64,000 nt of DNA. Source: Tenacibaculum sp. 190524A05c (lineage in GTDB: Bacteria > Bacteroidota > Bacteroidia > Flavobacteriales > Flavobacteriaceae). The position numbers were made by a program, and so were the translations under genes. Below, piece after piece: positions 23,209-42,542 of this stretch (position 1 is the first letter of the stretch; each line of letters starts with the position of its first letter). The stretch spans positions 1,866,501-1,930,500 of the forward strand of contig NZ_OZ038523.1 in NCBI RefSeq assembly GCF_964036595.1, written 5' to 3'. The notes under the pieces are model-generated. The model made no database searches. It was not told the DNA's origin and saw only the letters and a program-made list of their open reading frames with translations.

Positions 23209-24744
23209 TTAACCCAACCAACCTTCTCTATCAAGACTTCTGTATTGAATTGCTTCTGCTATATGATTACCAGTAACTTCAGTTGAATTTTCCAAATCTG
23301 CAATAGTTCTGCTTACCTTTAAAATACGGTCATAAGCTCTTGCGGATAAATTCAATTTCTCCATAGCATTTTTGAGTAAGGTCTTACTTTCATCAGAAAG
23401 CACGCAAAACTCACGAATTTGCTTTACAGACATTTGAGCGTTGTAGTGCACATTATTAAATTCTTTAAATCGTAAAGATTGAATTTTCCTAGCTTTAATC
23501 ACTCTTTTCCTAATTTCAACACTACTTTCTCCTTTTTTAACTTCCGTTAATTTCTCAAAAGGAACTGGAGTTACTTCGATGTGAATATCAATTCTATCTA
23601 ATAAAGGACCTGAAATCTTACTCATATACCTTTGCATTTCAGCCGGAGAAGAAGACATGATATTATTTTCATCATTAAAAAAACCTGACGGGCTAGGGTT
23701 CATACTTGCTACCAACATAAAACTACTAGGATAAGTGATAGTAAATTTAGCTCTAGAAATGGTAACTTCTCTATCCTCCAAAGGTTGTCTCATCACCTCA
23801 AGTACGGAACGTTTAAACTCTGGAAGTTCATCTAAAAACAGCACTCCATTATGTGCTAATGATATTTCTCCTGGTTGTGGATATTGACCTCCTCCTACTA
23901 ATGCTACATCTGAAGTTGTATGGTGAGGCGCTCTAAATGGTCGTTGACGTAGTACTCCAGAATTTTTCACCTTACCAATTACTGAATGAATTTTTGTTGT
24001 TTCTAAAGCCTCATCTAATGTCATCGGAGGTAAAATAGACGGTAATCGTTTTGCTAACATTGTTTTCCCTGCTCCTGGAGGACCAATCAAGACAATATTA
24101 TGACCACCAGCGGCAGCAATCTCCATGCATCTTTTTATAGATTCTTGTCCTTTTACATCAGAAAAATCAAATTCTAAAGATTCTTCTCCTTGGTTAAAAG
24201 CTTCTTCAGCATCAATAATTGTCGGTTCCAAATTTTCTTCCTCATTAAAATGTTGAATAACTTGTAAAATATTATCTACTCCATAAACGGTTAATCCAGA
24301 AACTATAGCTGCTTCCTTTGCATTCTCTTTAGGTAAAACTAAATACTTAAATCCTTCCTCTTTCGCCTTTATCGCTATTGGCAATGCTCCTTTTATAGGT
24401 TGTAACTTTCCATCCAAAGAAAGTTCTCCCATAATTACATATTCGGAAATATTATCCGTTTGAATTTGACCCGAGGCTCCGAGTATTCCAATAGCAATAG
24501 GCAAATCATAAGCAGCACCTTCTTTACGAATATCAGCAGGAGCCATATTTATGATAATTTTCTTTCCAGGGAGTTTATAGTTCACATTGGTAAGTGCCGC
24601 TGAAATCCGATAAGAACTTTCACGCACAGCATTATCTGGTAAACCTACCAAATGATACCCAATTCCTTTATCAATATTAACTTCAACAATAATGGTGATA
24701 GCTTCCACCCCGAAAACGGCAGAGCCATGAATTTTAACTAGCAT
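23209..24744 (-). CDS. YifB/ComM-family Mg-chelatase-like AAA+ ATPase
   Basis: The 511-aa protein has an N-terminal Lon-protease-like domain (1-170), then a Mg-chelatase-type AAA+ domain with Walker A GPPGAGKT (221-228) and Walker [11 protein letters not shown], and the conserved RAPHHT segment. ComM proteins promote branch migration during natural transformation; the exact role in this organism is unknown. It is the first gene of the five-gene run. Confidence 0.92.
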
Positions 24745-24879
24745 ATTTTTTTCTTTAGCAATTTGAAACGAAATAAAAACTTTTTAATGAAATACACAAT
24801 TATCAGTTAAATATTTTCGATAATCGAACTAATTCACATCATTAATTCCCGATTCGCTAGTCAATCAAAAGAAAATAAA

Positions 24880-24887
24880 TATATTTG
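24880..24887 (+). promoter_or_regulatory. Possible -7 element for the TonB receptor/kinase operon
   Basis: TATATTTG matches TAnnTTTG about 60 bp before the TTG start codon. No TTG is found at the usual -33 distance. This lies in the 203-bp spacer between yifB and the receptor gene; nothing else is seen there. Confidence 0.35.
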
Positions 24888-24947
24888 TGGTCTAGTCTCT
24901 ATACCCAACATTAACGCTAACTAATAACATTCAATTAAATTAATTAT

Positions 24948-27686
24948 TTGAAAGTGTTTTCTATTTTATATACGTTAAGGTTAAAGTTTACTCTTACTAG
25001 TTTACTTTTAGTGTTTTTGTTTAGTTTAAATAGTTACTCACAATCAAGAGCTACTATTTCTGGAACTGTTTCAGACGAATTTGGCGGTACACTACCTGGA
25101 GCAAAAGTAAGTATTGAAGGAACTACAATATTTACATCTACAAATGCAGATGGATTTTACCAATTTGATATTGAAGAAGGCGAATATGTAATAAACGTCA
25201 GTTTTATTATGTATAACAATATTTCTAAATCCGTGGAAGTGAAAGTGGGAGAAAATGCTACTCTGGACTTTGTACTTTCTGCTGGATTTTCTATTGACGA
25301 ACCTATATCATTAGGATCGAGAGCACAGCCAAAATCACTTTTAAAAACTACGGTTCCTGTAGATATTATTTTTCCTGAGGAAATTACAAATTCATCTCAT
25401 TTAGAAATCGGACAAATTCTACATTTCTTAGTACCTTCTTTTCATTCAACTCATCAAACTATTTCAGATGGAACAGACCATGTTGATCCTGCTAGTTTAA
25501 GAGGATTAGGACCTGACCAGGTGTTAGTTTTAATTAATGGAAAAAGAAGACACTCGAGTTCTTTGCTAAATGTGAATGGAACTGTTGGAAGAGGAAGTGT
25601 TGGAACGGATTTCAATGCCATTCCCAAAGCTGCTGTGGATCGAATTGAAATTTTAAGAGATGGTGCTACCTCACAGTATGGTTCTGATGCTATTGCTGGA
25701 GTAATTAATATTATTTTAAAACAACAGACTGAGTTTATAGATATTGATGGTCAATTTGGAACAAATACTGAAGGTGATGGAGAAACCAGGTACTTCGGAG
25801 CAAATTTGGGATTAGAATTGGGTAAACAAGGATTTTTAAATCTTACTGCTGAATATCGACAAAGAGAACCTACAAATAGAGCAGGTAATTATACTGGAAG
25901 CGTTTATACTTCTGATCCTACTGTTGATACACAACTTATCAATCAAAATAACTTTTTTGGTCAAACTGGATTTAGTGATCAAAGAGTTATGGAAATAGGA
26001 AATGCTGGAACGCAAAATCTTAGTTTTTTCTTTAATGGAGAATTACCGATTAACGAAAAGACTACATTCTATTTTCATGGAGGAAGGAACAACAGACAAG
26101 GAAATTCGAGAGGTTTTTATCGATTCCCTAAAGATGAGGATAGAGTTGTGTTAGAATTAAATCCGGATGGTTTTTCTCCTGAAATATTAACTGATATAAG
26201 AGATGATGCTATTTTAGCCGGAATTACTGGGATAAAAAATGGATGGAATTTAGATTTCAGCCAATCTCTTGGTATAAACACAATCGGGTTTAATGTTGAA
26301 AGTTCTAACAATGCTTCCATGGGAATTTCATCACCTAGAGGATTTAATTCTGGTGGTTTTAGATACCAGCAAAGTACTACAAATTTCGATTTAACTAAAA
26401 ACTTCGATTACTTAAAAGGATTGAATCTGGCTTTTGGAGGAGAACTTCGATTGGAGAATTATCAAATTATTGCCGGAGAGGAAGCATCTTATATAGATGG
26501 TGGAAGCACATATATTGACGGTAACGGTGTTGAACAACCTAGAATTCCTGGAGCACAAGTTTTTCCTGGTATTCGACCAGAAAATGAACTGAGTAGATTT
26601 AGAACAAATGCTGCTGCATATATTGATGTGGAATTAAATCCAAATGACAATTGGTTATTGAAAGGAGCTATGAGATATGAGTTTTATAATGATTTCTCTG
26701 GTCAAACCATTTGGAAATTAGCCTCTAGGTATAGTTTTTCAGATAATTTAAGTATTCGTTCTAGTTTCTCCACTGGTTTTAGAGCTCCTTCGTTACATCA
26801 GGTGTATTTTCAAAATGTGAGTAATCAATTTATTGATGGTGATATTAAAGAAGTAGGAACTTTTAATAGCGAAAGTGCTATTGTTAATGACGCTTTTGAA
26901 TTAGAAAGTTTAAAACCTGAATTATCAAATCATTTTAGTTTAGGTGTAAGTGGAAAAGTAAATAACACATTTACATTCTCCTTCGATTTGTATCAAATAA
27001 ATATTGAAGACAGAATTGTATTATCGGCTCGTCTTGAAGATGGATTTGAAACTATTTTACAACCGTTTAATGTAAGTGCAGCACAATTTTTAACCAATGC
27101 GATTGATTCTCGTACAAGAGGTTTAGATGCCGTAATAAATTATCGTGATAAATTAGGAGAAGGAGAAGTTTATGCTTCTTTAGCAGCGAACTTCAACAAT
27201 ACTAAAGTTGATCGTATCAATATAGAAAGTGGACAAATTGGAGGAATGGATAATTCTGCAATTTTTAATCGTGAAGAAGTTGCCAGAATTGAATCTTCAC
27301 AACCTAACTTCAAAATTAACTCATTAGTTTCATATGATTGGAATAAATTTATTTTCCAATTACGAAATACATATTTTGGAGAAGTAACATATATGCATCC
27401 GAGTGATGGCGATTCTAACAACTGGGCTTTAAATGAGTTTAATGGATTAATAGAATCGAGAGATCAAACGTTTGCCCCTAAAATACTTACTGATTTATCC
27501 TTAAGTTATAAATTCGAGAACTGGATTAGATTTAGTTTAGGCGCGAACAATATTTTCAACGTTTATCCAGATAAACATAAACACTCTGCCAACACAAGTC
27601 AAGGTAATTTCACGTACAGTAGACGTGTACAACAATTTGGTGTTCAAGGTGCAAATTACTTTTTACGATTAGATTTAAAATTATGA
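24948..27686 (+). CDS. TonB-dependent outer-membrane receptor
   Basis: The 912-aa protein has a signal segment (cleavage near NSYSQ), an N-terminal carboxypeptidase-regulatory-like domain (about residues 35-110, ISGTVSDEFGGTLPGAKV), a plug domain (about 130-250, LRGLGPDQVLVLINGKRR and RIEILRDGATSQYGSDAIAGVIN), and a beta-barrel to the end. The start is a TTG (a GTG two codons later is an alternative). There is no SusD partner. It overlaps the YfiR-type kinase gene by 4 bases, so ligand uptake and sensing may be coupled (inference). Confidence 0.9.
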   Translation: MKVFSILYTLRLKFTLTSLLLVFLFSLNSYSQSRATISGTVSDEFGGTLPGAKVSIEGTTIFTSTNADGFYQFDIEEGEYVINVSFIMYNNISKSVEVKVGENATLDFVLSAGFSIDEPISLGSRAQPKSLLKTTVPVDIIFPEEITNSSHLEIGQILHFLVPSFHSTHQTISDGTDHVDPASLRGLGPDQVLVLINGKRRHSSSLLNVNGTVGRGSVGTDFNAIPKAAVDRIEILRDGATSQYGSDAIAGVINIILKQQTEFIDIDGQFGTNTEGDGETRYFGANLGLELGKQGFLNLTAEYRQREPTNRAGNYTGSVYTSDPTVDTQLINQNNFFGQTGFSDQRVMEIGNAGTQNLSFFFNGELPINEKTTFYFHGGRNNRQGNSRGFYRFPKDEDRVVLELNPDGFSPEILTDIRDDAILAGITGIKNGWNLDFSQSLGINTIGFNVESSNNASMGISSPRGFNSGGFRYQQSTTNFDLTKNFDYLKGLNLAFGGELRLENYQIIAGEEASYIDGGSTYIDGNGVEQPRIPGAQVFPGIRPENELSRFRTNAAAYIDVELNPNDNWLLKGAMRYEFYNDFSGQTIWKLASRYSFSDNLSIRSSFSTGFRAPSLHQVYFQNVSNQFIDGDIKEVGTFNSESAIVNDAFELESLKPELSNHFSLGVSGKVNNTFTFSFDLYQINIEDRIVLSARLEDGFETILQPFNVSAAQFLTNAIDSRTRGLDAVINYRDKLGEGEVYASLAANFNNTKVDRINIESGQIGGMDNSAIFNREEVARIESSQPNFKINSLVSYDWNKFIFQLRNTYFGEVTYMHPSDGDSNNWALNEFNGLIESRDQTFAPKILTDLSLSYKFENWIRFSLGANNIFNVYPDKHKHSANTSQGNFTYSRRVQQFGVQGANYFLRLDLKL

Positions 27687-29473
27687 TTCGATTAAAAACA
27701 ACTCGATTATTCATTGTTTTTACAATCATATGTAGTGCGATTCAAATGAATGCCCAATCTAATGATGTAAAACGTCTTCAACGTGCTATTTTCATTTTTA
27801 ATTTCGCTGAACAGGTTAGTTGGAAAAATGCTCCTGAAGATCAATTTACCATTGGTGTTTTAGGAAATGATAATACCATAACAGATCTTAAAAATTTAGC
27901 AAAAAAGAGAAAAATCAAGAACAAACCAGTTCATATCAAACATTTTTCTGCCATTCGAGACGTGAAAAATGTTCAACTAGTTTTTGTAAAACAGCGCTAC
28001 AATTTTGACATTAATTATTTACTAAAAAAGATAGCAAACCATAATACACTAGTAGTCACCGAAGGATATAGTTACAATTCTTCTATGATTAATATTATAA
28101 ATGTGAATAACTCTTTTGCTTACGAGTTAAATGAAAAACTATTATCAAGAGAAAATTTCAGAATTGCCTCTTCTTTAAAAAAATTCGCCATTACCTCTTC
28201 TGATAAATGGAAACAATTATATCAAACTACAGAGAAGGAATTAATAAAAGCCGAAGAGAAAAAAACCGAACAAAGAGAACTAATTGAAAACAAAGAAGAG
28301 CAGATACAATCTCAGCAAAAGACAATTACAGTTCAAGAAAAAGAACTTACGGTAAAAAATGATTCAATTTATGTACAAACTCAAGCTATAGAAAAGCTGT
28401 TTGATGAAAATGAATTTCAAAAAAAGAAATACGAGGAAAAACTTTTAATTGAAAAAGAACTTGAAAAAAGAATCCAACATCAGTTTGAATCGATTAAAAA
28501 GCAAAAAGAGAATATAAAATCTATAAACTCTGAAATTGAAACACAACAGAAAAAGTTAAATCAACAAGCGGAGGAAATCATTGTAAAAGAAAATATTTTA
28601 AAAGAAAAAGACCACAAATTAAATACTCAAAAAACAATTAATTATCTCCTTATTGCTGTAATAGCATTTGCGCTTTTAGTAACCTTTTTGATATACAGAA
28701 GTTATGCAGCTGTTAAAAGATATAACAAGGAATTAGCCCTAAAGAATGATAAAATTTACAAACAATCCATTCAATTAGAGTCCAAGAATAAAGAATTGGA
28801 GCAATTCGCTCATATTACGAGTCATGATTTAAAAGAGCCGTTAGCTTCTATTTTTAGTTTTGCTAATGAACTTGAAGAAAATCATAAAACCCAATTAGAT
28901 GATGATGGCGCTCATTATGTGAGCTTTATTACCAGAGCAAGTAAAAGAGGATTGCAATTCATAGATGCACTTCTAGCTTATTTTAAACTGGGAACCTCTG
29001 ACATTCTTAATACAGAAATTAATTGTAGTGATTTAGTAACCGATATTACAACGGATTTATCCGGTCTGATTTCTAGAAATAATGCAACTGTTAACTATAG
29101 TAATTTACCAATTGTAAATGCTTCAGCTATTGAACTTAGGTTATTATTTCAAAACTTAATAAACAATGCCATTAAGTTTAAAAAATCAGATACAAATCCA
29201 ATTGTTAGTATAACTGCACAAAAAATCAGAGAGAACAATAATCAGTCAAAATATTGGCAATTTTCTGTTTCTGATAATGGTATTGGAATAGCAGATCATA
29301 ACAAAGAAAAGATATTCGTAATCTTTAAACGATTGCACTCAAAAGAACAATATGAAGGTACCGGAATTGGATTAGCCTACTGCAAAAAGATTGTCGAATC
29401 TTTAGGAGGTAAAATATGGTTTGATTCAAAAGAAGGTGAAGGAACTACTTTCCATTTTACATTACCCGCGTAA
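27683..29473 (+). CDS. YfiR-domain sensor histidine kinase
   Basis: This 596-aa protein has a signal peptide (cleavage near NAQS, residue 25), a YfiR-like domain (about 30-165), a long charged coiled coil (about 178-315), one transmembrane helix (about 319-339), and a HisKA-HATPase kinase. H381 in ITSHDLKEPL is intact. The N box (NLINNAIKFK), G1 (DNGIGIA) and G2 (GTGIGLAYC) are intact. It has no receiver domain, so it needs a separate one. The ATGA overlap with the receptor gene predicts coupled translation. YfiR family members act in periplasmic redox-sensitive signalling; the ligand is unknown. Confidence 0.88.
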   Translation: MIRLKTTRLFIVFTIICSAIQMNAQSNDVKRLQRAIFIFNFAEQVSWKNAPEDQFTIGVLGNDNTITDLKNLAKKRKIKNKPVHIKHFSAIRDVKNVQLVFVKQRYNFDINYLLKKIANHNTLVVTEGYSYNSSMINIINVNNSFAYELNEKLLSRENFRIASSLKKFAITSSDKWKQLYQTTEKELIKAEEKKTEQRELIENKEEQIQSQQKTITVQEKELTVKNDSIYVQTQAIEKLFDENEFQKKKYEEKLLIEKELEKRIQHQFESIKKQKENIKSINSEIETQQKKLNQQAEEIIVKENILKEKDHKLNTQKTINYLLIAVIAFALLVTFLIYRSYAAVKRYNKELALKNDKIYKQSIQLESKNKELEQFAHITSHDLKEPLASIFSFANELEENHKTQLDDDGAHYVSFITRASKRGLQFIDALLAYFKLGTSDILNTEINCSDLVTDITTDLSGLISRNNATVNYSNLPIVNASAIELRLLFQNLINNAIKFKKSDTNPIVSITAQKIRENNNQSKYWQFSVSDNGIGIADHNKEKIFVIFKRLHSKEQYEGTGIGLAYCKKIVESLGGKIWFDSKEGEGTTFHFTLPA

Positions 29474-29688
29474 ATTCGTTGTAAAAATGTAACATTTTTA
29501 AAGAACCACTTCTTAAAAAACAAGTTTTCAAAAAGTTACTTTAAACACAATTATGAAACATCATTGAACTTTAATCTTTTCTAATCATTATAATTTAGTA
29601 TCAGTAAAAGAAGTTAATCTTTAAGTATAAATAAATATAAACTTAATTGGGGGATGAAGTTTATACTTTTACTTAAGACTAAAAACAT

Positions 29689-29720
29689 AAAACAACAAGG
29701 CTCTAAGTTTTGTTGTTTTT
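29689..29720 (+). terminator. Possible terminator downstream of the kinase gene
   Basis: AAAACAACAA pairs with TTGTTGTTTT around a 9-nt loop and is followed by a run of T. It is more than 200 bp after the kinase stop, so a separate short transcript in this region is also possible. Confidence 0.6.
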
Positions 29721-29743
29721 TTTATTAATAAAATTCGAAGCAT

Positions 29744-29770
29744 AAAAAAAGTGCGAAAGAATCGCACTTT
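29744..29770 (-). terminator. Terminator of the AraC-type hybrid regulator transcript
   Basis: On the minus strand a 9-bp stem (AAAGTGCGA / TCGCACTTT, 5-nt loop) is followed by T7. It lies about 225 bp after the stop of the regulator gene, leaving a long 3' untranslated region. Confidence 0.65.
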
Positions 29771-29994
29771 AATAATCTCTTGTAAAATATAATGAAGTCT
29801 TAAATAATCCCCCTAAAAATTCTTCATTAAATTAATTTTTTAACTAAACCCCAAAAGATTACCCTTCAAATTTAGCCAATACTATCTTACAGTACCTTCA
29901 ATAATGTTACCTGAAAAAATCACACTTTAGAACAAAAAACCACAGTAAAACAAAGGGTTTGACATGAAAATTACACTGATGTTACCTCTAGAAA

Positions 29995-31623
29995 CTAGTG
30001 TTTATGAGCATGTTTATACTCGTTTGGAGTTTGATCATATTTATTCCTAAATGCCGTTGAGAAGTAATTTGGTGATGAAAAACCAACTGAATACGCTATA
30101 TCAGCAATTGACAAATTGTTATCTCCAATTAATAACTCCTTACTTTTTTCTAATCTAATATTCTGGATATAATCGCTAATTGTTATTCCTAAAACAGCTT
30201 TAGTTTTACGATATAACTGTACTCTAGAAATATGTAATTCCTCCGCTAGAATTTCAACAGTAAACGACGAGTCATCTAAATGTTTTTGGATAAGTTCATT
30301 CAACTTCCCTATAAATGCAACTTCTTTATCTTTATTCTTTCCCTCAGCTTTATTAGGACGTTCTATTGAAGTATTTAAGTATAGCTGTTTTAAATATTTT
30401 TGAATCTGTTTTCTATTGTATAGTAAAGACTCTATAGACTCAGATAACACAGAAAGATTGAATGGTTTCGTTAAAAACATATCAACACCAGATTTCAATC
30501 CTTTAATATGAGCTTCATCAGTATCTAAAGAAGTTAACATGATTACAGGGATATGTGAAGTTCTTTCATCGTTCTTTACAAACTCACAAAGTTCGAATCC
30601 GTTCTTCTGAGGTAGATTAACATCGCTTACAATAACGTCCGGTATGGTTTCCAATATTTTTGACTCAACATTAATTCCATCCGATTCATGAACCTCATAT
30701 GACTTTTTCAACTTGCTTTTCAAAAAGAACCTTAAATCGTCATTATCTTCGATAATTAGAACAATTTCCTCATTAGAATTTAAATCTTCTTTAATGTGTT
30801 CTCTAGAATCAGTTAGACTATCGCTATGCCCAACCTGAATATCTTCTTCAACGATCAATTGATTCTCAGAAAAATGATCTTCTCCCTTTGGAAGCGAAAT
30901 AATAAATTCCGATCCAATATTTTCTTTGGAAATGACTTCAATTGTTCCCTTATGAAGTTCAGCATACGCCTTAGCTAAATACAACCCAATTCCAGAACTT
31001 GATTGTTGATTGTTATTACCTTGATAAAACTGATTGAATATTTTTTCTTTATCTGTTACTGAGATTCCTATACCTGAGTCTTTTACAGCAATACATACCG
31101 AATTCTCTTTTTCAAAAATATCAACACTTATTTTTCCTTGAATCGGTGTAAACTTGAAGGCATTAGACAATAGATTAAAAATCATGTTTCGAACTAACTC
31201 TCTATCTACAAATAATTCAAGACTGTTTGCATTAGAATTAAACGAAAACTCAATTCCCTTTTTTTGTGCTTCTTTTTGAAAATTTGAATAGACTGAAGAA
31301 ACTAAAGCAGAAATACTTGTTCTCGATACTTTTAAATCAAACTCATTATTTTCAAGTTTTCTAAACTCTAAAAGTTGATTGACCATCTTCAACAACAAGT
31401 TTGCATTATCATGAATTAAATTCAATTCTTTTGAATCATGATTGGAATTCGAATTCATTAGTGATTCCGTTGAAGACAATATTAGAGAAACCACAGTTTT
31501 AAAATCGTAAGAAATTCCTTTAAAGAAATTACTTGCCGTTGTACTAGAATCATCTAACCTTTGCACAGAATCATCATTATTTACATCTCCAGACAATTGA
31601 TTTTCTTCCATTTTTATTTGCAT
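29995..31623 (-). CDS. Soluble hybrid regulator: degenerate kinase, receiver, AraC DNA-binding domain
   Basis: The 542-aa protein has no membrane segment or sensor. Order: kinase-dimerisation-like region (about 33-95), ATPase domain (N box FNLLSNAFKF, G1 DSGIGIS, G2 SGIGL), receiver (about 285-390, IIEDNDD, phospho-acceptor in SDVNLP at D334, LTKP Lys) and AraC HTH (about 440-542). In hybrid two-component regulators the first box reads ISHEFRTPL; here it is ISYDFKTVV, so the phospho-accepting His is Tyr39. ATG 31623 is chosen; 31611 is equally possible. Confidence 0.88.
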   Translation of the reverse strand: MQIKMEENQLSGDVNNDDSVQRLDDSSTTASNFFKGISYDFKTVVSLILSSTESLMNSNSNHDSKELNLIHDNANLLLKMVNQLLEFRKLENNEFDLKVSRTSISALVSSVYSNFQKEAQKKGIEFSFNSNANSLELFVDRELVRNMIFNLLSNAFKFTPIQGKISVDIFEKENSVCIAVKDSGIGISVTDKEKIFNQFYQGNNNQQSSSGIGLYLAKAYAELHKGTIEVISKENIGSEFIISLPKGEDHFSENQLIVEEDIQVGHSDSLTDSREHIKEDLNSNEEIVLIIEDNDDLRFFLKSKLKKSYEVHESDGINVESKILETIPDVIVSDVNLPQKNGFELCEFVKNDERTSHIPVIMLTSLDTDEAHIKGLKSGVDMFLTKPFNLSVLSESIESLLYNRKQIQKYLKQLYLNTSIERPNKAEGKNKDKEVAFIGKLNELIQKHLDDSSFTVEILAEELHISRVQLYRKTKAVLGITISDYIQNIRLEKSKELLIGDNNLSIADIAYSVGFSSPNYFSTAFRNKYDQTPNEYKHAHKH

Positions 31624-31922: not shown

Positions 31923-31933
31923 TTTTCAGCTTG

Positions 31934-32015
31934 TACGGGTGAAGGGAGTCGAACCCCCACGCCTTGCGGCACTAGATCCTAAGTCTAGCGTGTCTACCAA
32001 TTCCACCACACCCGC
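31934..32015 (-). tRNA. tRNA-Leu(UAG)
   Basis: An 82-nt class II tRNA. The acceptor arm GCGGGTG pairs with CACCCGT (one G-T pair), with discriminator A. The anticodon loop reads CTTAGGA, giving anticodon UAG for Leu CUN codons. A short variable arm (GCCGCAAGGC) and the T-loop GGTTCGACTCC are present. CCA is not encoded, as is common in this phylum. A promoter lies at 32035-32063 and a terminator follows. Confidence 0.95.
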
Positions 32016-32163: not shown

Positions 32164-33552
32164 ATGCAAACCATTCAAGAATATATATCTACTCACAAAA
32201 ACAGATTTATTGAAGAACTTATCGAATTATTAAAAATCCCATCTGTTAGTGCAGATACGGCTTACTCGCAAGATGTTTTAAACACTGCAGATGCCATTAT
32301 GGATTCTTTAAAAAAAGCTGGATGTGATCATGTTGAATTATGTGAAACACCTGGTTATCCTATTGTATATGGAGAGAAAATAATTGACAAAAACTTACCT
32401 ACAGTATTAGTTTACGGACATTACGATGTTCAACCTGCTGATCCTATTGATTTATGGGATTCTCCTCCATTTAATCCTGTTATTAAAAAAACAGATATTC
32501 ATCCAGAAGGAGCAATTTTTGCTCGTGGCGCATGTGATGATAAAGGTCAAATGTACATGCATGTAAAAGCTTTAGAGTACATGACTTCTCAAGGAAACCT
32601 TCCGTGTAATGTAAAGTTTATGATTGAAGGTGAAGAAGAAGTTGGTTCAGAAAGTTTAGCTTGGTTTGTACCTAGAAATACTGAAAAATTAGCCAATGAT
32701 GTAATCTTAATTTCAGATACTGGAATGATTGCTAACGATATTCCATCAATTACAACAGGTCTAAGAGGTTTAAGTTATGTTGAAGTTGAAGTTACTGGAC
32801 CGAACAGAGATTTACATTCTGGATTGTATGGTGGTGCTGTGGCAAATCCAATAAATATTTTATCTAAAATGATTGCTTCTCTTCATGATGAGAACAATCA
32901 TATTACTATTCCTGGTTTTTATGATAAAGTAGAAGAATTATCTCGTGAAGAACGTGATGAAATGGCTAAAGCTCCATTCTCTTTAGAAGAATACAAAAAA
33001 GCCTTAGACATTGATGCCGTTTATGGTGAGAAAGATTATACAACAAACGAAAGAAACTCTATCCGTCCAACATTAGATGTTAATGGAATTTGGGGAGGAT
33101 ATATTGGTGAAGGTGCAAAAACTGTAATTGCTTCTAAAGCCTATGCTAAAATTTCAATGCGTTTAGTTCCAAATCAAGATTGGGAAGAAATCACTCAATT
33201 ATTTAAAACTCATTTTGAAAATATTGCTCCCGCAGGAGTAAAAGTTAAAGTAACTCCACATCATGGAGGACAAGGTTATGTTACTCCAATTAACAACATT
33301 GGATATCAGGCAGCGAGTAAAGCATATCAAGAAACTTTTGGAGTTACTCCTATTCCGCAAAGAAGTGGAGGAAGTATTCCTATTGTAGCATTATTCGAAC
33401 AAGAATTGAAAAGCAAAACCATATTAATGGGATTCGGATTAAACTCAGATGCAATCCACTCTCCTAATGAACATTTTGGTGTTTGGAATTATTTAAAAGG
33501 AATAGAAACTATTCCGTATTTCTATAAGCACTTTGCAGAATTGAGCAAATAA
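32164..33552 (+). CDS. M20 family dipeptidase (CNDP-like)
   Basis: The 462-aa protein has the zinc-binding VYGHYDVQPAD, the bridging Asp in RGACDDKGQ, the catalytic Glu pair in GEEEVGSE and the distal His in SDAIHSPNEHF. It belongs to the cytosolic non-specific dipeptidase branch of M20. No signal peptide is present, so it is cytoplasmic and probably finishes peptide degradation. It is monocistronic, with a terminator right after it. Confidence 0.92.
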   Translation: MQTIQEYISTHKNRFIEELIELLKIPSVSADTAYSQDVLNTADAIMDSLKKAGCDHVELCETPGYPIVYGEKIIDKNLPTVLVYGHYDVQPADPIDLWDSPPFNPVIKKTDIHPEGAIFARGACDDKGQMYMHVKALEYMTSQGNLPCNVKFMIEGEEEVGSESLAWFVPRNTEKLANDVILISDTGMIANDIPSITTGLRGLSYVEVEVTGPNRDLHSGLYGGAVANPINILSKMIASLHDENNHITIPGFYDKVEELSREERDEMAKAPFSLEEYKKALDIDAVYGEKDYTTNERNSIRPTLDVNGIWGGYIGEGAKTVIASKAYAKISMRLVPNQDWEEITQLFKTHFENIAPAGVKVKVTPHHGGQGYVTPINNIGYQAASKAYQETFGVTPIPQRSGGSIPIVALFEQELKSKTILMGFGLNSDAIHSPNEHFGVWNYLKGIETIPYFYKHFAELSK

Positions 33553-34896: not shown

Positions 34897-34904
34897 TAAA
34901 TTTG
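34897..34904 (+). promoter_or_regulatory. Possible -7 element for the DUF3857 operon
   Basis: TAAATTTG matches TAnnTTTG 15 bp before the ATG at 34920. The -33 element is not obvious. Confidence 0.35.
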
Positions 34905-34919
34905 CTGAAAATTAAGACT

Positions 34920-36824
34920 ATGAGAAATAAAATTGCGTATTTATCTCTATTATTATGTTGCTCTTTATTTACCTATGCTCAAGATTTGAGTTTAACTGCT
35001 ATAACAATACCTGCAGAATTAACTAAAGATGCAAATGCTGTAGTTAAAGAAAGCTATACAGAGATAAATTTAAATGCCATAGATGAAATGACCGTTAAAC
35101 TTAGAAAGGTTACTACGGTTCTTAATAAATTAGGTGATAGACATATTGATGCTGCCATTCACTATGACAGTGATAGGAAAATTACAAAGTTATCTGCAAA
35201 AATCTATAACGCTCTTGGAAAAGAAATTAAAAAGTTTTCTAAAAGCAAATTTATTGATGTTAGTGCTGTTAATGGGTTTACTCTTTATTCTGACGACAGA
35301 TTAAAATATATTGATTACACGCCTACGGAATATCCATATACTGTTGTATTTGAATGTGAATTTAAATCATCTTCTACTGGCTTTATTCCTGAATGGAACC
35401 CTCAAGATTCTTATTACATTTCTGTTCAAAGAAGTGAATATAAAATTAACAATCCCAATAACTTTAAAACTAGAATTAGAAAACTAAATTTTGAAAACTA
35501 TCCAATCAAAAAAGTATCTGATGAAAGTATTCATTATTTAGCGGAAAACGTACCTGCAATAGAGTATGAAAGAAATAGCATTAATTATACAGAAATTTTT
35601 CCCAGATTATTAGTTGCTTTAAATCAGTTCAGTCTAAATAAAGTATCAGGAACTGGAACTGACTGGAAAGAATTTGGGAAATGGATGAATGCTAAACTTC
35701 TTAATGGAAGGGCAGAGTTATCACCTGCAACAATTGAACAAGCAAAAAACTTGGTTTCTGGCTTAGATAATGATATTGAGAAAGCAAAAAAAATATATGA
35801 ATTTGTTCAAAACAAAACTAGATATATTAATGTAAGTATTGGTATTGGAGGCTGGCAACCTGCGGCTGCGAATGAAGTTGACAAAATGGGATATGGTGAT
35901 TGTAAAGGTTTAACGAATTATACAAAAGCTTTACTTGATGTTGTTGGAGTAGAATCTTACCATACTTTAGTTTATGCAAAGGAAAGAAGAGATATTGATA
36001 AAAATTTTTCTTCTTTGCAAGGCAATCATATGATTTTGAATATTCCTAATAATGGAAATGACGTGTGGTTAGAATGTACTAGTCAAACTATTCCTTTTGG
36101 GTTTTTAGGTGATTTTACCGATAATAGAGATGTTTTAGTAATCACTCCAGAAGGAGGAATCATCAAAAGAACTCCGTCTTATCAAAATGAAACTAATCTT
36201 CAAACCTGTAAAGCCAATATTAAATTAGATGCTAATGGAAATATTGAGGCTGATGTAGAAATTACCTCAAAAGGAGTTCAGTACGATGATAAATACCATA
36301 TAGAAAGTTACTCGAAAAACGATTTAGAAAAATACTACAAGTCTTCAAGATGGTCTTACAATAACAATCTAGAGATAAAATCAACAAAACTGACAAACGA
36401 TAAAAAGAATGTGATTTTCACAGAAAATATTACTACTACAGTTGCGGATTATGGAAGTATAACGGGAAATGAATTATTGTTAAGAGTGAACATTTTTAAT
36501 AGAGACACTTACGTTCCTAAACGTTATAGAACAAGAAATTACCCATTACAGATTAGCCGAGGTTATAAAGATGTTGATGATTTTACCATTACTATTCCCG
36601 AAGGATACAACATAACAACCTTACCTCCTAAGTACGAAATCACTACTAAATTTGGTACGTACTCAATGGAAGTTAAAAAAGTAGATGAAAAAACTCTTAC
36701 CTATCATAAATCTATATTAATCAAAGAAGGAACATTTCCTAAAGAAGATTACAAACTATATCGAAAATTCAGAAAACGTATTGCTAAACAAGAAAATTTA
36801 AGAATTGCTCTACAAAAACTATAA
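34920..36824 (+). CDS. DUF3857/transglutaminase-like protein, catalytic residues present
   Basis: The 634-aa protein has a signal peptide (cleavage near TYAQD), an N-terminal DUF3857 domain (about 60-220), and a transglutaminase-like core with GYGDCKG (C328) and NHMI (H370), followed by a C-terminal beta domain. The Cys-His pair is intact, so it may be an active peptidase or transferase. It is the first of three paralogues in tandem. The ATG at 34920 is preferred over an upstream TTG. Function of the family is unknown. Confidence 0.85.
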   Translation: MRNKIAYLSLLLCCSLFTYAQDLSLTAITIPAELTKDANAVVKESYTEINLNAIDEMTVKLRKVTTVLNKLGDRHIDAAIHYDSDRKITKLSAKIYNALGKEIKKFSKSKFIDVSAVNGFTLYSDDRLKYIDYTPTEYPYTVVFECEFKSSSTGFIPEWNPQDSYYISVQRSEYKINNPNNFKTRIRKLNFENYPIKKVSDESIHYLAENVPAIEYERNSINYTEIFPRLLVALNQFSLNKVSGTGTDWKEFGKWMNAKLLNGRAELSPATIEQAKNLVSGLDNDIEKAKKIYEFVQNKTRYINVSIGIGGWQPAAANEVDKMGYGDCKGLTNYTKALLDVVGVESYHTLVYAKERRDIDKNFSSLQGNHMILNIPNNGNDVWLECTSQTIPFGFLGDFTDNRDVLVITPEGGIIKRTPSYQNETNLQTCKANIKLDANGNIEADVEITSKGVQYDDKYHIESYSKNDLEKYYKSSRWSYNNNLEIKSTKLTNDKKNVIFTENITTTVADYGSITGNELLLRVNIFNRDTYVPKRYRTRNYPLQISRGYKDVDDFTITIPEGYNITTLPPKYEITTKFGTYSMEVKKVDEKTLTYHKSILIKEGTFPKEDYKLYRKFRKRIAKQENLRIALQKL

Positions 36825-36843
36825 AATCAAACTTTAAAAGACT

Positions 36844-38781
36844 ATGAGGAAATTATTTATCATGCTAACCTTGTTAGTGTCAATCTCAGTTGCTTCACAA
36901 GAAATTAAATTCGGAAAGGTATCCAAACAAGCATTAGAAGAAGAGTATTACCCATTAGATTCAACAGCTAATGCTGCTTACTTACTAAAACAAAGAAAAA
37001 CATTCTACGAATACAATAGAAATGCAGGGTTTCGAATTGTAAGTTACTTTCATTACCGCTTAAAAGTATACAACAAACAAGGTCTTGACAGAGCTACATT
37101 CAAAATTTACTATGCTTCCAAATCTGGTAGTACAGAAAAAATTTCTAGCGTTAAAGGGTATACTTTCAATCTAAATGAAAATGGTGAAATTACTAAGGAT
37201 AAATTGAGTGATAAAAGTATTTTCAAGGAAAGACAATCTGAATACAGAAGTGTAAAAAAAGTAACAATGCCAAATGTAAAGGAAGGTTCTATAATTGATT
37301 TAAAATACAAACTTACTTCCCCTTACATCTACATTGTTGATGATTTATCTTTTCAAACCAATATTCCAATAAAAAAATTACATATAGAGATTGAAACTCC
37401 AGAATGGTTTGTGTTTAATAAAATAGGTAAAGGTTTTTATACTATACCTCCAAAGAGTTCGAAAAAAACAAGGGATCTTAATTTTAATGTTGATATTTAT
37501 GATGGAGAAAATATACCAGCATTGAGAGATAATGAGCCATTTGTTTCTAACATTAATAACTACTATGGTGGATTAAAATATGAATTATCTTATACTCAAT
37601 TTCCAAATTCCACAATCAAAACTTATTCGGATTCTTGGGAAAATGTAAGTAAGCAAATTTATAAATCTTCTAAGTTTGGAGGAGAACTTGAAAGAACGAG
37701 TTACTTTAAAGAAGATCTACAAAATATACTTGCTCAAGCCAAAGGAGATGTTCAGAAAGCTCTTGCTATTTTCGAACATGTTAAAAACAAAGTTCAATGG
37801 AATTCAGAATATGGAAAATTCACAAGAGATGGAACGAAAGAAGCATATAAAAAAGGAACTGGTAATGTTGCTGAAATTAATCTAATCCTTACTGCTATGC
37901 TAAGAGAAGCAGGACTCGGAGCGAATCCCGTTTTAGTAAGCACTCGTAATCATAACATCCCTATTTTCCCTACTCTAGATGGATTTAATTATGTAGTTAG
38001 CTTAGTTGAGTTTACTGACGGGACTTCAATGTTACTTGACGCTACGGAAAAATATGCGATGCCAAATGTATTACCATATAGAGCTTTAAATTGGAATGGA
38101 AGAAAAGTTACTAAAGAAGGGTATTCTACTTGGGTTAATTTAAACGCTCCAAAACATTCATCTGAAACTAATACCTTAAAAGTAAAACTTGATGAAGAAG
38201 GAACGGTAGAAGGGTTATTAAGAACTAAAGATGAAATGCTTAGCGCAATGTTAGGTAGAAAACGATATAATCAATATGAAGATGATGAAGTTATTTCTAA
38301 ACTTGAAGAGAAATATGATATTGAAATAGAAAACTTTAGAGCTAGTAATAAAGAAAATGTTTACAAGTCGTATAACAAAATGCTTAAGTTTAGCTCAGAG
38401 GATTTAGTTGAAAACATTAATGGTAAATTATTAATTAACCCATTATTGTTCTTAACAGATAAAACAAACCCTTTCAAGTCTGAAGAAAGAACTTTTCCTG
38501 TTGATTTTGCCTCTGCTTGGAAAGAAACAAATAATGTTTCAATTCAATTACCAGAAGGCTATAAAGCTGAATCCATTCCAGAACAATTTGCTATCGGATT
38601 ACCTGATAACCTTGGATTCTTTAAATTCAAAGTAACAAATACAGGTAAAACTGTTAATATTAATTCTATTATTCAAATTAACAGTCCGATTATCGCTCCA
38701 AATTACTACAGTAGTTTAAAAGAGTTTTACACAAAAGTTATTGCGAAACAAAAAGAACAAATTGTATTAGTCAAAGGATAA
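36844..38781 (+). CDS. DUF3857 paralogue lacking the transglutaminase Cys
   Basis: The 645-aa protein has a signal peptide (SVASQ) and the same domain order as its upstream neighbour. At the site equivalent to GYGDCKG it reads GTGNVAE, so the catalytic Cys is Val (V342), and the His region reads FNYVV. The Asp-containing LLDATEK is kept. It is therefore probably a non-catalytic, binding or scaffolding protein (inference). It follows the first paralogue after 19 bases and precedes the third by 6, so the three are one operon. Confidence 0.85.
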   Translation: MRKLFIMLTLLVSISVASQEIKFGKVSKQALEEEYYPLDSTANAAYLLKQRKTFYEYNRNAGFRIVSYFHYRLKVYNKQGLDRATFKIYYASKSGSTEKISSVKGYTFNLNENGEITKDKLSDKSIFKERQSEYRSVKKVTMPNVKEGSIIDLKYKLTSPYIYIVDDLSFQTNIPIKKLHIEIETPEWFVFNKIGKGFYTIPPKSSKKTRDLNFNVDIYDGENIPALRDNEPFVSNINNYYGGLKYELSYTQFPNSTIKTYSDSWENVSKQIYKSSKFGGELERTSYFKEDLQNILAQAKGDVQKALAIFEHVKNKVQWNSEYGKFTRDGTKEAYKKGTGNVAEINLILTAMLREAGLGANPVLVSTRNHNIPIFPTLDGFNYVVSLVEFTDGTSMLLDATEKYAMPNVLPYRALNWNGRKVTKEGYSTWVNLNAPKHSSETNTLKVKLDEEGTVEGLLRTKDEMLSAMLGRKRYNQYEDDEVISKLEEKYDIEIENFRASNKENVYKSYNKMLKFSSEDLVENINGKLLINPLLFLTDKTNPFKSEERTFPVDFASAWKETNNVSIQLPEGYKAESIPEQFAIGLPDNLGFFKFKVTNTGKTVNINSIIQINSPIIAPNYYSSLKEFYTKVIAKQKEQIVLVKG

Positions 38782-38787
38782 CAGCAG

Positions 38788-40731
38788 ATGAAAAATTTAC
38801 TTGTAATACTACTTATTTTTATAAGTAGTATTTCTGTTTACGGACAAAAAAACAGAAAAACTCCAAAGCTTGGACAAACATCTAGAGCCGAGTTAGAGCT
38901 GACAGTATATGAGAAAGATTCTACTGCTGGAGCTTTAATACTTGAAGAGAAAGGATATTCTTATGTTGATGAAGAAAATAATTACGATTTCAGAAGAGAT
39001 ATATACAGAAGAGTGAAAATTTTTAACAAATCTGAATTCGATCGAACAACAATAGAATTAAATTTATATAAGGAAGAGGAAGTAAAATATATAAAAGCTG
39101 TAACGTATAACATTGAAGACGGCAGAGAAACCAAGATTTACTTATTATCAAATCAAATATTTAAAAAGAAACTTTCTGAAAATTGGTCTCAAACAACGTT
39201 TACCCTTCCTAATGTTAAAGAAGGATCTGTAATTGAATATACGTACAGTTTATTTTCTCCTTATAGTCAAATTGATGAATGGAAATTTCAAACTGACATT
39301 CCTAAAGTTAAAAGTGATTTTATATCATCTTTCCCTGGAAATTGGAAATATAACATAAGAATTAGATCAACAAAAAAATTAGATAGAAACAAGTCTTACA
39401 TTAAAAAATCTTGTTTGCAAGTGGGTGGTTTAGGTGCTGCAGATTGCTCTGTAATGGAATATGGAATGGACGATATTCCTGCTTTTAAGAGTGAAGATTT
39501 TATGCTTTCCGAAGAAAATTTTAAAGGGAAACTTATTTTTGAACCCATTTCATTTACCAATACTAATGGTGTAATAAAAAAATACACCCAAACTTGGAAA
39601 GATGCAGATCGAACAATAAGAAAAATATTTTTAGATGCTCAAACAACTAAAAAAGGATTCTTTAGAAAAAAATTACCTCAGCAATTATTCTCAGCAAATT
39701 CGGAAACTGAAAAAGCAGAAGGCATTTATAAGCACATACAAAATAAACTAACTTGGAATAAAGACTTTAGAACAAAATCAATTCGAGTAAAAGATATTTA
39801 TAAGAGCAATTCAGGTGGTGTAGATGGAATTAATCTAGTTTTATACAACTGTTTACAAGCTGCCAATATTGAGAGTTATATCGTCGGATTGTCTACCAGA
39901 AAAAACGGAATTATTACAAAACTTCATCCATCAATTTCACTATTCAACTATTTTTTAGTTAAGGTTATCGTAGATGGTCAAACTTACTTTTTGGATGCAA
40001 CTGACAAAAATTTAATATTTGGTGAAGTTCCATATAGATGTTTAAATGGTGAAGTAAGAGTTTTTGACTTTAAAAAAGGAAGTTACTGGGAGCTTTTAAA
40101 ACCAAAATTCAGATCAAGTGTTCGACATAATATCTCTCTAAAATTTGACGAAACAGGAGAAATGACAGGAGATATTATCTCTTCTGAAAAAGGATATTAT
40201 GCACTTCGTAAGAGAAGAGAACTACAATCACAATCAGAAGAAGATTATTTAGAAGAATTTGAAACGGATAATTCAATACTTGAAGTAGATGAGTTTACGA
40301 TAATTTCCGACAAAAAGGACCTCATAAAAACATCCTATCAAGTTAGTATTCCTGATTTTACGTTGGAAGCCGATGTTATCAAACTAAATCCTTTTGTAAT
40401 TGATAAAAATGGGGAAAACCCATTTAAACTTAAAGAGCGAAATTATCCAGTAGATTTTGGTTATGCTTGGTCTAAATCATATTCAATAAGAGTTTCAATT
40501 CCTGATGGATATACTGTATCTAAACTCCCGGAAAACAAAGCAGTTTCTCTTCCCGAAAAAGGAGGAAAGTTAATTTACAGAGTAAACAAAACAGATACCG
40601 AAGTAATTATTTACATGAAGTTCAACTTTAGTAAAGCAATTTACTCCAATGTAGAGTATTATTACTTAAAAGAATTTTTCAAACAATTAATTAAACTTCA
40701 GGAAGGTTATATAGAGCTTAAAAAATCATAA
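38788..40731 (+). CDS. DUF3857 paralogue lacking the transglutaminase Cys
   Basis: The 647-aa protein has a signal peptide (SVYGQ) and DUF3857 plus transglutaminase-like regions. The active-site segment reads SGGVDGIN, so the Cys position is Val (about V345) and the His region is FNYFLV. FLDATDKN retains the Asp. It shares with the second paralogue the ending ERNYPVDFGYAW / ERTFPVDFASAW, showing recent duplication relative to the first. It is likely an envelope protein without the original enzyme activity. Confidence 0.85.
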   Translation: MKNLLVILLIFISSISVYGQKNRKTPKLGQTSRAELELTVYEKDSTAGALILEEKGYSYVDEENNYDFRRDIYRRVKIFNKSEFDRTTIELNLYKEEEVKYIKAVTYNIEDGRETKIYLLSNQIFKKKLSENWSQTTFTLPNVKEGSVIEYTYSLFSPYSQIDEWKFQTDIPKVKSDFISSFPGNWKYNIRIRSTKKLDRNKSYIKKSCLQVGGLGAADCSVMEYGMDDIPAFKSEDFMLSEENFKGKLIFEPISFTNTNGVIKKYTQTWKDADRTIRKIFLDAQTTKKGFFRKKLPQQLFSANSETEKAEGIYKHIQNKLTWNKDFRTKSIRVKDIYKSNSGGVDGINLVLYNCLQAANIESYIVGLSTRKNGIITKLHPSISLFNYFLVKVIVDGQTYFLDATDKNLIFGEVPYRCLNGEVRVFDFKKGSYWELLKPKFRSSVRHNISLKFDETGEMTGDIISSEKGYYALRKRRELQSQSEEDYLEEFETDNSILEVDEFTIISDKKDLIKTSYQVSIPDFTLEADVIKLNPFVIDKNGENPFKLKERNYPVDFGYAWSKSYSIRVSIPDGYTVSKLPENKAVSLPEKGGKLIYRVNKTDTEVIIYMKFNFSKAIYSNVEYYYLKEFFKQLIKLQEGYIELKKS

Positions 40732-42170: not shown

Positions 42171-42542
42171 ATGCAGTTAAGCAAAACCGAGGAACAATTA
42201 ATGCAATTATTATGGAAGTTAAAGAAAGGATTCATGAAAGACATCCTATCCGAATTTCCAGAACCTAAACCAGCTACTACAACAGTTGCTACGCTTTTAA
42301 AAAGAATGCGTGATAAAGGATTTATCGATTATAAATTATACGGTAAATCAAGAGAGTATTATCCTCTTGTTAAAAAGACAGACTATTTCTCAAAACACGT
42401 TAACGGTTTAATTAAAAACTTCTTTAACGATTCCGCTAGCCAATTTGCATCGTTCTTTACCAAAGAAACAGACTTATCTGTAACCGAATTAGAAGAACTA
42501 CGTAAAATCATAGACAATCAAATAAAAGAGCAGAAAAAATGA
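42171..42542 (+). CDS. BlaI/MecI/CopY family repressor
   Basis: The 123-aa protein has the family winged helix (TKTEEQLMQLLWKLKKGFMKDILSEF, then ATTTVATLLKRMRDKGFI) and a C-terminal dimerisation part. Such repressors bind TACAnnTGTA operators and are destroyed after signalling by a BlaR1-type metallopeptidase, which is the next gene here with a 4-base overlap. The operators sit on its own promoter, so it is autoregulated. The target may be only this operon, as no beta-lactamase is near. Confidence 0.92.
   Translation: MQLSKTEEQLMQLLWKLKKGFMKDILSEFPEPKPATTTVATLLKRMRDKGFIDYKLYGKSREYYPLVKKTDYFSKHVNGLIKNFFNDSASQFASFFTKETDLSVTELEELRKIIDNQIKEQKK

Follow-up and report, generated by a model that had tools for sequence, protein, structure and literature searches.

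A YfiR-domain sensor kinase beside a disarmed hybrid two-component regulator in Tenacibaculum: a candidate exchange of signalling partners

The DNA analysed here (the window) is a stretch of 64,000 nucleotides of Tenacibaculum sp. 190524A05c (contig NZ_OZ038523.1, positions 1,866,501 to 1,930,500, forward strand), whose genome is a single contig of 4.13 Mb. It encodes a TonB-dependent receptor, a sensor histidine kinase with a YfiR-like periplasmic domain and a soluble regulator in which the phospho-accepting histidine is replaced by tyrosine. A first-pass annotation had paired the kinase with this regulator from their positions and complementary missing parts. This pairing is probably correct, and a clear evolutionary reason can be given for it, the regulator being probably a captured and disarmed hybrid two-component system (HTCS). 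It is likely that the regulator derives from a full-length HTCS and is now phosphorylated on Asp334 by the neighbouring YfiR-domain kinase. The evidence leans, less firmly, towards a fuller history in which the receptor-coupled kinase would have lost its single-domain receiver and taken a resident HTCS, which shed its sensor and histidine and whose receiver came to resemble the lost partner. Old targets would thereby have been connected to a new outer-membrane input, with a heptad-adjustable arm placing the YfiR domain towards the receptor. The central features are as follows.

24948..27686, plus strand: TonB-dependent receptor with an N-terminal CarboxypepD_reg domain (Pfam; orthologues in other genera)
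27683..29473, plus strand: YfiR-domain sensor histidine kinase, with an N-terminal signal-like helix, DUF4154, a long periplasmic helix, a transmembrane helix, HisKA and HATPase
28823..28825, plus strand: codon of the phospho-accepting His381 of the kinase (H in 121/121 aligned homologues)
29995..31623, minus strand: soluble disarmed HTCS regulator, DHp(Y)-CA-receiver-AraC, convergent with the kinase gene
31507..31509, minus strand: Tyr39 codon at the HTCS phospho-His site (Y in 4/4 disarmed proteins, H in 12/12 full-length ones)
30622..30624, minus strand: Asp334 codon, the receiver phospho-acceptor (D in 16/16)

The composition read by the first-pass annotation was recovered throughout. The receptor and kinase genes overlap by 4 bases (ATGA), and the kinase combines a YfiR-like domain with H381 and ATPase boxes and has no receiver (Pfam, scan and alignment). 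Its YfiR/HmsC (DUF4154) membership is supported by a Pfam match above cut-off, the only DUF4154 match in the genome, and by the YfiR fold recovered for this piece by fold comparison; no YfiR was matched when solved structures were searched by sequence with the same piece. The kinase core includes HisKA with its histidine and HATPase with N, G1, F and G2 boxes. The convergent protein comprises a HisKA-like region with Y39, from which the following proline is also lost, a HATPase domain, a receiver with D334 and an AraC domain. Neither PF13407 nor another sensor domain (Pfam) nor any hydrophobic segment (scan) was detected in it, so that the periplasmic sensor, the transmembrane helix and the phospho-His of an HTCS are all missing from this chain, and the receiver, AraC output and common descent with HTCSs are retained.

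Among the best 120 of 6120 relatives listed for the regulator, the top places are taken by a small number of sensor-less proteins (529-556 residues); next come proteins of about 900 residues, which carry the PF13407 sensor and show about 60% identity to the regulator in the part they have in common. When these 120 are aligned with the regulator, the His column contains H in 113 sequences, Y in seven and a gap in one (a 427-aa fragment). A chance or erroneous His-to-Tyr change was rejected, as all seven of the 121 aligned sequences that measure 529-556 aa and span the site have Tyr, the regulator itself and some near-copies being among these seven. At E ≤ 1e-110, relatives occur in 17 of 166 genomes of the genus, namely four disarmed proteins (in G000, G149, G128 and G111), 12 full-length proteins with His and one fragment (in G126). 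All four disarmed proteins have lost the sensor, the membrane helix, the His (now Tyr) and the Pro, adjoin a receptor-kinase pair, and retain the response-regulator residues (the ED pair, D334, T364 and K386). They form one clade (support 98/96), and a tree of the output half places the regulator among the full-length HTCSs of the genus. Together, these comparisons indicate that the regulator derives from a full-length HTCS after loss of the sensor, membrane helix and phospho-His.

The chromosomal site offers a view of the state before these losses. It is recognised by at least one of three flanking genes.

23209..24744, minus strand: ChlI-type ATPase gene, synteny marker on the receptor side (Pfam; directly adjoins the intact HTCS in G072)
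31933..32015, minus strand: tRNA-Leu gene, synteny marker adjoining the regulator (also in L187, L188, L190 and L191; not in L186 and L189)
32164..33552, plus strand: M20 peptidase gene, synteny marker on the regulator side (Pfam; synteny)

In seven genomes (G072, G160, G159, G152, G012, G061 and G078), the same site holds a full-length, His-bearing HTCS, the proteins of G012 and G061 being near-copies (507/511 identical), and neither receptor nor kinase is found there within the stretches read. In G072, the order is M20, tRNA-Leu, HTCS and ChlI, with neither gene of the pair in between. Among the other five full-length HTCSs, the G079 protein is encoded elsewhere, and four have SusC-like and transporter-like genes at their loci (judged by eye). 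The four genomes of the disarmed clade all keep the ChlI side (with one extra gene in G128), three keep the tRNA-Leu/M20 side (the exception being G149), and the order of receptor, kinase and regulator is identical in 4/4. In the simplest history, the receptor-kinase pair would have entered the space separating HTCS from ChlI, and the sensor, helix and His would have disappeared from the HTCS.

At locus L191 of G012, two tRNA-Leu genes flank a small block of genes between HTCS and M20, and an insertion hotspot at the tRNA-Leu of this locus is suggested.

Outside this clade, the kinase has another companion. It is present in 5/166 genomes of the genus and in 20/397 sampled genomes of the family (own genome included), and the neighbours of 20 further kinase loci were read in 19 genomes of 14 other genera of Flavobacteriaceae. 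A single-domain receiver is encoded upstream on the same strand at all 20 loci. The order is receiver-receptor-kinase in 18 of them, two of which (L240 and L243) have a second receiver-like gene in between, and 2/20 have no receptor. The 20 kinases are preceded by 23 receiver-like genes, from which the three second receivers (L240, L243 and L251) were excluded to leave 20 canonical receivers; one profile was built on 19 of these (without L236) and another on all 20. The canonical receivers score 141-218 bits on leave-one-out hidden Markov models (HMMs). At the window locus, no single-domain receiver lies upstream of the receptor. The canonical receiver was also not found elsewhere in the four disarmed-regulator genomes, their best matches reaching 65-71 bits. 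G079, the fifth Tenacibaculum genome with the pair, keeps its HTCS intact elsewhere and has three borderline receiver matches of 118-136 bits, each beside another kinase-like open reading frame; no receiver in the canonical range was therefore detected in these five genomes.

The first-pass annotation had made co-occurrence of the pair and the His-less regulator a test of their partnership. This expectation holds from the side of the regulator, as 4/4 His-less regulators among the 166 genomes adjoin the pair, bar a shorter fragment in one metagenome-assembled genome (MAG). From the side of the pair it does not, given that the pair usually occurs without such a regulator and has its own receiver. 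Since the pair is found with a single-domain receiver at the 20 other loci and is also present in G079, it is a wider module for which the His-less regulator is a replacement partner in one clade. No description of a receiver-TonB receptor-YfiR kinase operon was found in the literature searched, nor any match joining DUF4154, histidine kinase and TonB. This operon of 14 other sampled genera is a candidate signalling route from an outer-membrane transporter without a sigma/anti-sigma pair.

The periplasmic part of the kinase was compared in 121 homologues (own and 120 best-listed).

27782..28189, plus strand: YfiR/HmsC-like (DUF4154) periplasmic domain, residues 34-169
28208..28636, plus strand: periplasmic helical region, residues 176-318, with a distal arm (176-239), a conserved element (239-267) and a proximal arm
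28637..28693, plus strand: transmembrane helix, residues 319-337 (hydropathy scan)

The end of the YfiR domain is separated from the transmembrane helix by 129, 136, 143, 150 or 157 residues in 118/121 sequences and by 140 or 144 in three, and the distance from this helix to the His is 62 residues in 121/121. Nearly all length variation resides in the distal arm (49-77 residues), for which a quick tree requires at least 17 length changes; the length of the conserved element is invariably 28 residues, and 120/121 proximal arms have 52. The distal arm thus changes by whole heptads in 118/121 homologues, as would suit a coiled-coil rod that has to preserve its phase. The predicted model of the kinase breaks with low confidence at 239-249, the conserved element sitting at and after this break, and its predicted template modelling score (pTM) of 0.37 leaves the arrangement uncertain. 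An antiparallel hairpin, drawn from two near-equal helices of this model, was disfavoured, as the distal arm varies from 49 to 77 residues against a proximal arm of 52. Such a rod may bring the YfiR domain near the receptor, and the YfiR of Pseudomonas aeruginosa is described as meeting an outer-membrane partner, YfiB (PMC4655355, excerpt).

A different source of input is conceivable, although doubtful: the receptor would be a transporter only, an output or bystander, and the kinase would sense the state of the envelope as YfiR does with YfiB. Such a role would agree with the relay of an outer-membrane/peptidoglycan signal by YfiR in the same excerpt on P. aeruginosa and with the two loci without receptor. 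It is opposed by the adjacency of receptor and kinase on the same strand, found at 18/20 loci of other genera and at 5/5 Tenacibaculum loci with 4-base overlaps. It is also opposed by the NCBIfam models TOL_0243 (YfiR-like) and TOL_0244 (TonB receptor), which bear neighbouring numbers and both match here, far below cut-off. An STN signalling domain marks TonB-dependent transducers with an anti-sigma partner. The receptor has no such domain at its N-terminus, Pfam at E ≤ 0.01 giving CarboxypepD_reg domains, Plug and barrel only.

If the kinase has changed partner, traces could be left on both sides of the interface. A kinase residue was called lineage-specific when fixed in the four linked kinases and found in no more than 3% of 110 others; seven further kinases, close relatives of these four, were kept out of both groups. 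Such residues occupy 12/72 columns of DHp, 3/142 of DUF4154, 6/143 of the coil, 4/159 of CA, 1/25 of the signal region and 0/47 around the transmembrane helix. The lineage-specific changes of the kinase are thus concentrated in DHp, the partner-docking domain (12/72 vs 14/516 examined elsewhere; Fisher p=1.1e-5). One of them, E396, stands at His+15, in the register of T275 of HK853 (H260+15), a residue mutated in the rewired HK853 of PDB 4jas (entry title); the others could be matched to no such position. For EnvZ-OmpR, an excerpt of PMC2991266 assigns specificity to DHp residues of the kinase and to helix 1 and the beta5-alpha5 loop of the receiver.

On the receiver side, helix 1 is changed in the disarmed proteins. 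At six receiver positions, they have fixed residues that are absent from the eight nearest full-length proteins, and at three of these positions the residue is the commonest one of the canonical receivers: V288 (11/20), F299 (19/20) and K307 (12/20). F299 is found in 4/4 disarmed and 0/12 full-length proteins and in none of the 28 other receivers of the genome that could be parsed (of 30 loci, the best of 48 receiver matches). On the canonical-receiver HMM, the disarmed proteins reach 37.2-39.9 bits, and the scores of the 12 full-length ones all lie at 26.4-32.0. Relative to the eight nearest, the shift averages +9.1 bits, against -1.6 to +1.7 for LytTR, OmpR and NarL types. The regulator receiver has thus moved towards the sequence of the lost receiver. 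With adjacency in 4/4 genomes, the usual receiver not found and changes in both proteins, the pairing of kinase and regulator is well supported, tempered by the other receiver that the pair usually has.

Several observations weigh against this exchange of partners. The three remaining fixed positions of the disarmed receivers (D295, S365 and S394) differ from the commonest canonical residue, and a shift is likewise seen for two other single-domain families (+5.1 and +3.9 bits), one of them with complete separation. The column test on the receiver (P=0.012) was post hoc, as were all tests of partnership marks, which rest on one clade. Because this clade has a single origin, its four genomes do not provide independent correlations. 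The beta5-alpha5 loop (KPFNLSV) is identical in the four disarmed and the eight nearest full-length proteins. In a presumed register with the RR468 sequence, changes 295, 299 and 307 adjoin but differ from the RR468 rewiring positions 13, 14, 17 and 21. These positions stem from the titles of PDB entries. The regulator is convergent with the pair and not co-transcribed with it, the 48 receiver matches of the genome are as many alternative partners, and upstream of the receptor no operator-like motif is shared beyond a promoter-like element. Lastly, G126 (an 89% complete, 7% contaminated MAG) encodes a 429-aa HTCS relative (L207:1825-3114) consisting of CA, receiver and AraC only, without sensor and DHp. 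No kinase match was found in this genome at E ≤ 1e-90, so that loss of the sensor seems possible without the kinase. No sensor remains were detected there by tblastn with one full-length protein in the 12 kb read.

The presence of other receivers also feeds an alternative that is unlikely, in which the kinase would signal through one of them and the regulator would stay unphosphorylated or be phosphorylated by another kinase or acetyl phosphate. The genome retains three single-domain receivers (C1:1439704, 3766189 and 1089877), the type that accompanies the kinase in other genera. However, the canonical HMM gives them only 59-71 bits, another HATPase match is located no more than about 2.2 kb from each, and this alternative leaves both the DHp changes of the kinase and the canonical shift of the regulator receiver unexplained.

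The two halves of the regulator have diverged differently. Mean identity among the four disarmed proteins is 65% for DHp, 55% for CA, 85% for the receiver and 88% for the helix-turn-helix (HTH) domain, vs 87%, 71%, 78% and 82.5%, respectively, among the eight full-length proteins of the nearest group. Relative to receiver+HTH, the divergence of DHp is 2.52 (1.76-3.71) in disarmed vs 0.66 (0.37-1.03) in full-length proteins, and that of CA is 3.23 (2.40-4.53) vs 1.46 (1.08-1.93), with ranges from a column bootstrap. Among columns invariant in the 12 full-length proteins, 30/73 in DHp+CA and 3/85 in receiver+HTH are altered in at least one disarmed protein (Fisher p=4e-9). The output half is thus normally constrained and the kinase half relaxed, with the ATP-binding boxes eroding in one disarmed orthologue. 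The ratio of nonsynonymous to synonymous rates (dN/dS) is below 1 in every domain and pair with computable dS (five pairs, dS often near saturation), including the kinase half of both disarmed pairs computed. In the predicted model (pTM 0.73), the kinase half still folds, keeping its DHp and CA folds. It is probably retained as a dimerisation scaffold.

Retention of these folds and a dN/dS below 1 would also suit a pseudokinase input comparable to DivL, in which the dead half reads another phosphorylated receiver or the YfiR-domain kinase itself and Tyr serves this role rather than mere disarming. According to an excerpt of PMC4211667, DivL bears Tyr in place of the His, has neither kinase nor phosphatase activity and acts as a sensor of a phosphorylated receiver. 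Such a role is nonetheless improbable here, as a binding platform would be expected to show the reverse of the identities observed, with DHp and CA below receiver and HTH. Mere chance proximity, with the pair inserted beside an already decaying HTCS left as a remnant or constitutive transcription factor, would accommodate the relaxed kinase half, the eroding boxes and the sensor loss of G126, but is the least probable alternative given the open frame, D334, receiver and HTH kept across four lineages, a receiver as conserved as the HTH that a constitutive factor would not need, and the constant gene order.

For the exchange of partners, a route of signal transfer can be proposed. A ligand would engage the TonB-dependent receptor in the outer membrane, and the YfiR domain, at the tip of the long periplasmic helix, would read the receptor or the imported substance. 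Then, the helix would relay a rotation or shift across the membrane to the dimerisation domain, and phosphorylated H381 would hand its phosphate in trans to D334, a transfer to which the partner loss, the docking-domain changes and the synteny point. The AraC domain would act on targets that have probably stayed as they were for the ancestral HTCS, the DNA-binding domain being almost unaltered. Loss of the His from the dead kinase half would stop competition in cis with the new kinase. Inferences on the natural exchange of two-component inputs have so far mostly drawn on paralogues or on engineered rewiring. In the present case, related genomes display both the state before (an intact HTCS at the same site, and a kinase accompanied by its own receiver in other genera) and the state after, so that the order and specificity of the rewiring become directly testable.

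The promoter-like element mentioned above lies 5' of the receptor gene.

24878..24888, plus strand: promoter-like element AATATATTTGT

It is the sole 11-mer common to the four receptor upstream regions of the disarmed clade, and ATATTTGT is present in 5/5 regions, G079 included (MAFFT alignment). The element contains TATATTTG, which matches TAnnTTTG, taken here to be the Bacteroidota -7 pattern.

Elsewhere in the window, three successive same-strand genes of 640-647 aa (34902-40731) have homologues that keep their order in relatives, the third having no Pfam match at E ≤ 0.001. At 42171-45328, a penicillinase-repressor (BlaI-like) gene overlaps by 4 bases a 929-aa gene bearing an M56 (BlaR1) peptidase domain.

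Four known or newly outlined systems bear comparison with this locus. The HTCS BT1754 has a sensor of the periplasmic-binding-protein type. The full-length relatives of the regulator, the nearest of which are about 60% identical to it where they overlap, resemble BT1754 in joining a PF13407 sensor, HisKA, HATPase, receiver and AraC in a single polypeptide, with a transmembrane helix in relative P0009 (hydropathy scan), whereas the regulator lacks sensor, transmembrane helix, His and Pro, and its input is expected in trans. BT1754 serves fructose (PMC3404733, excerpt). With the receiver-receptor-YfiR kinase operon of other genera, the locus shares a related receptor (60-66% identical) and kinase (39-51%), adjacent on the same strand; it differs in the lack of the single-domain receiver and in the disarmed HTCS that lies beside the pair. 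No match was found in the literature searched for a hybrid two-component pseudokinase in Bacteroidota or Bacteroidetes. DivL (PMC4211667, excerpt) shares the His-to-Tyr change and, judging from the predicted model, the kept DHp and CA folds, the likeness here being limited to Tyr and fold. It is an input sensor made of PAS domains and a histidine kinase module, whereas the dead kinase of this locus continues into a receiver and a DNA-binding output. In YfiBNR of P. aeruginosa, a YfiR fold likewise stands between outer- and inner-membrane partners, but there, in the excerpt of PMC4655355, YfiR is a separate periplasmic protein acting on the GGDEF protein YfiN, whereas here it is one domain of a histidine kinase that is paired with a TonB receptor.

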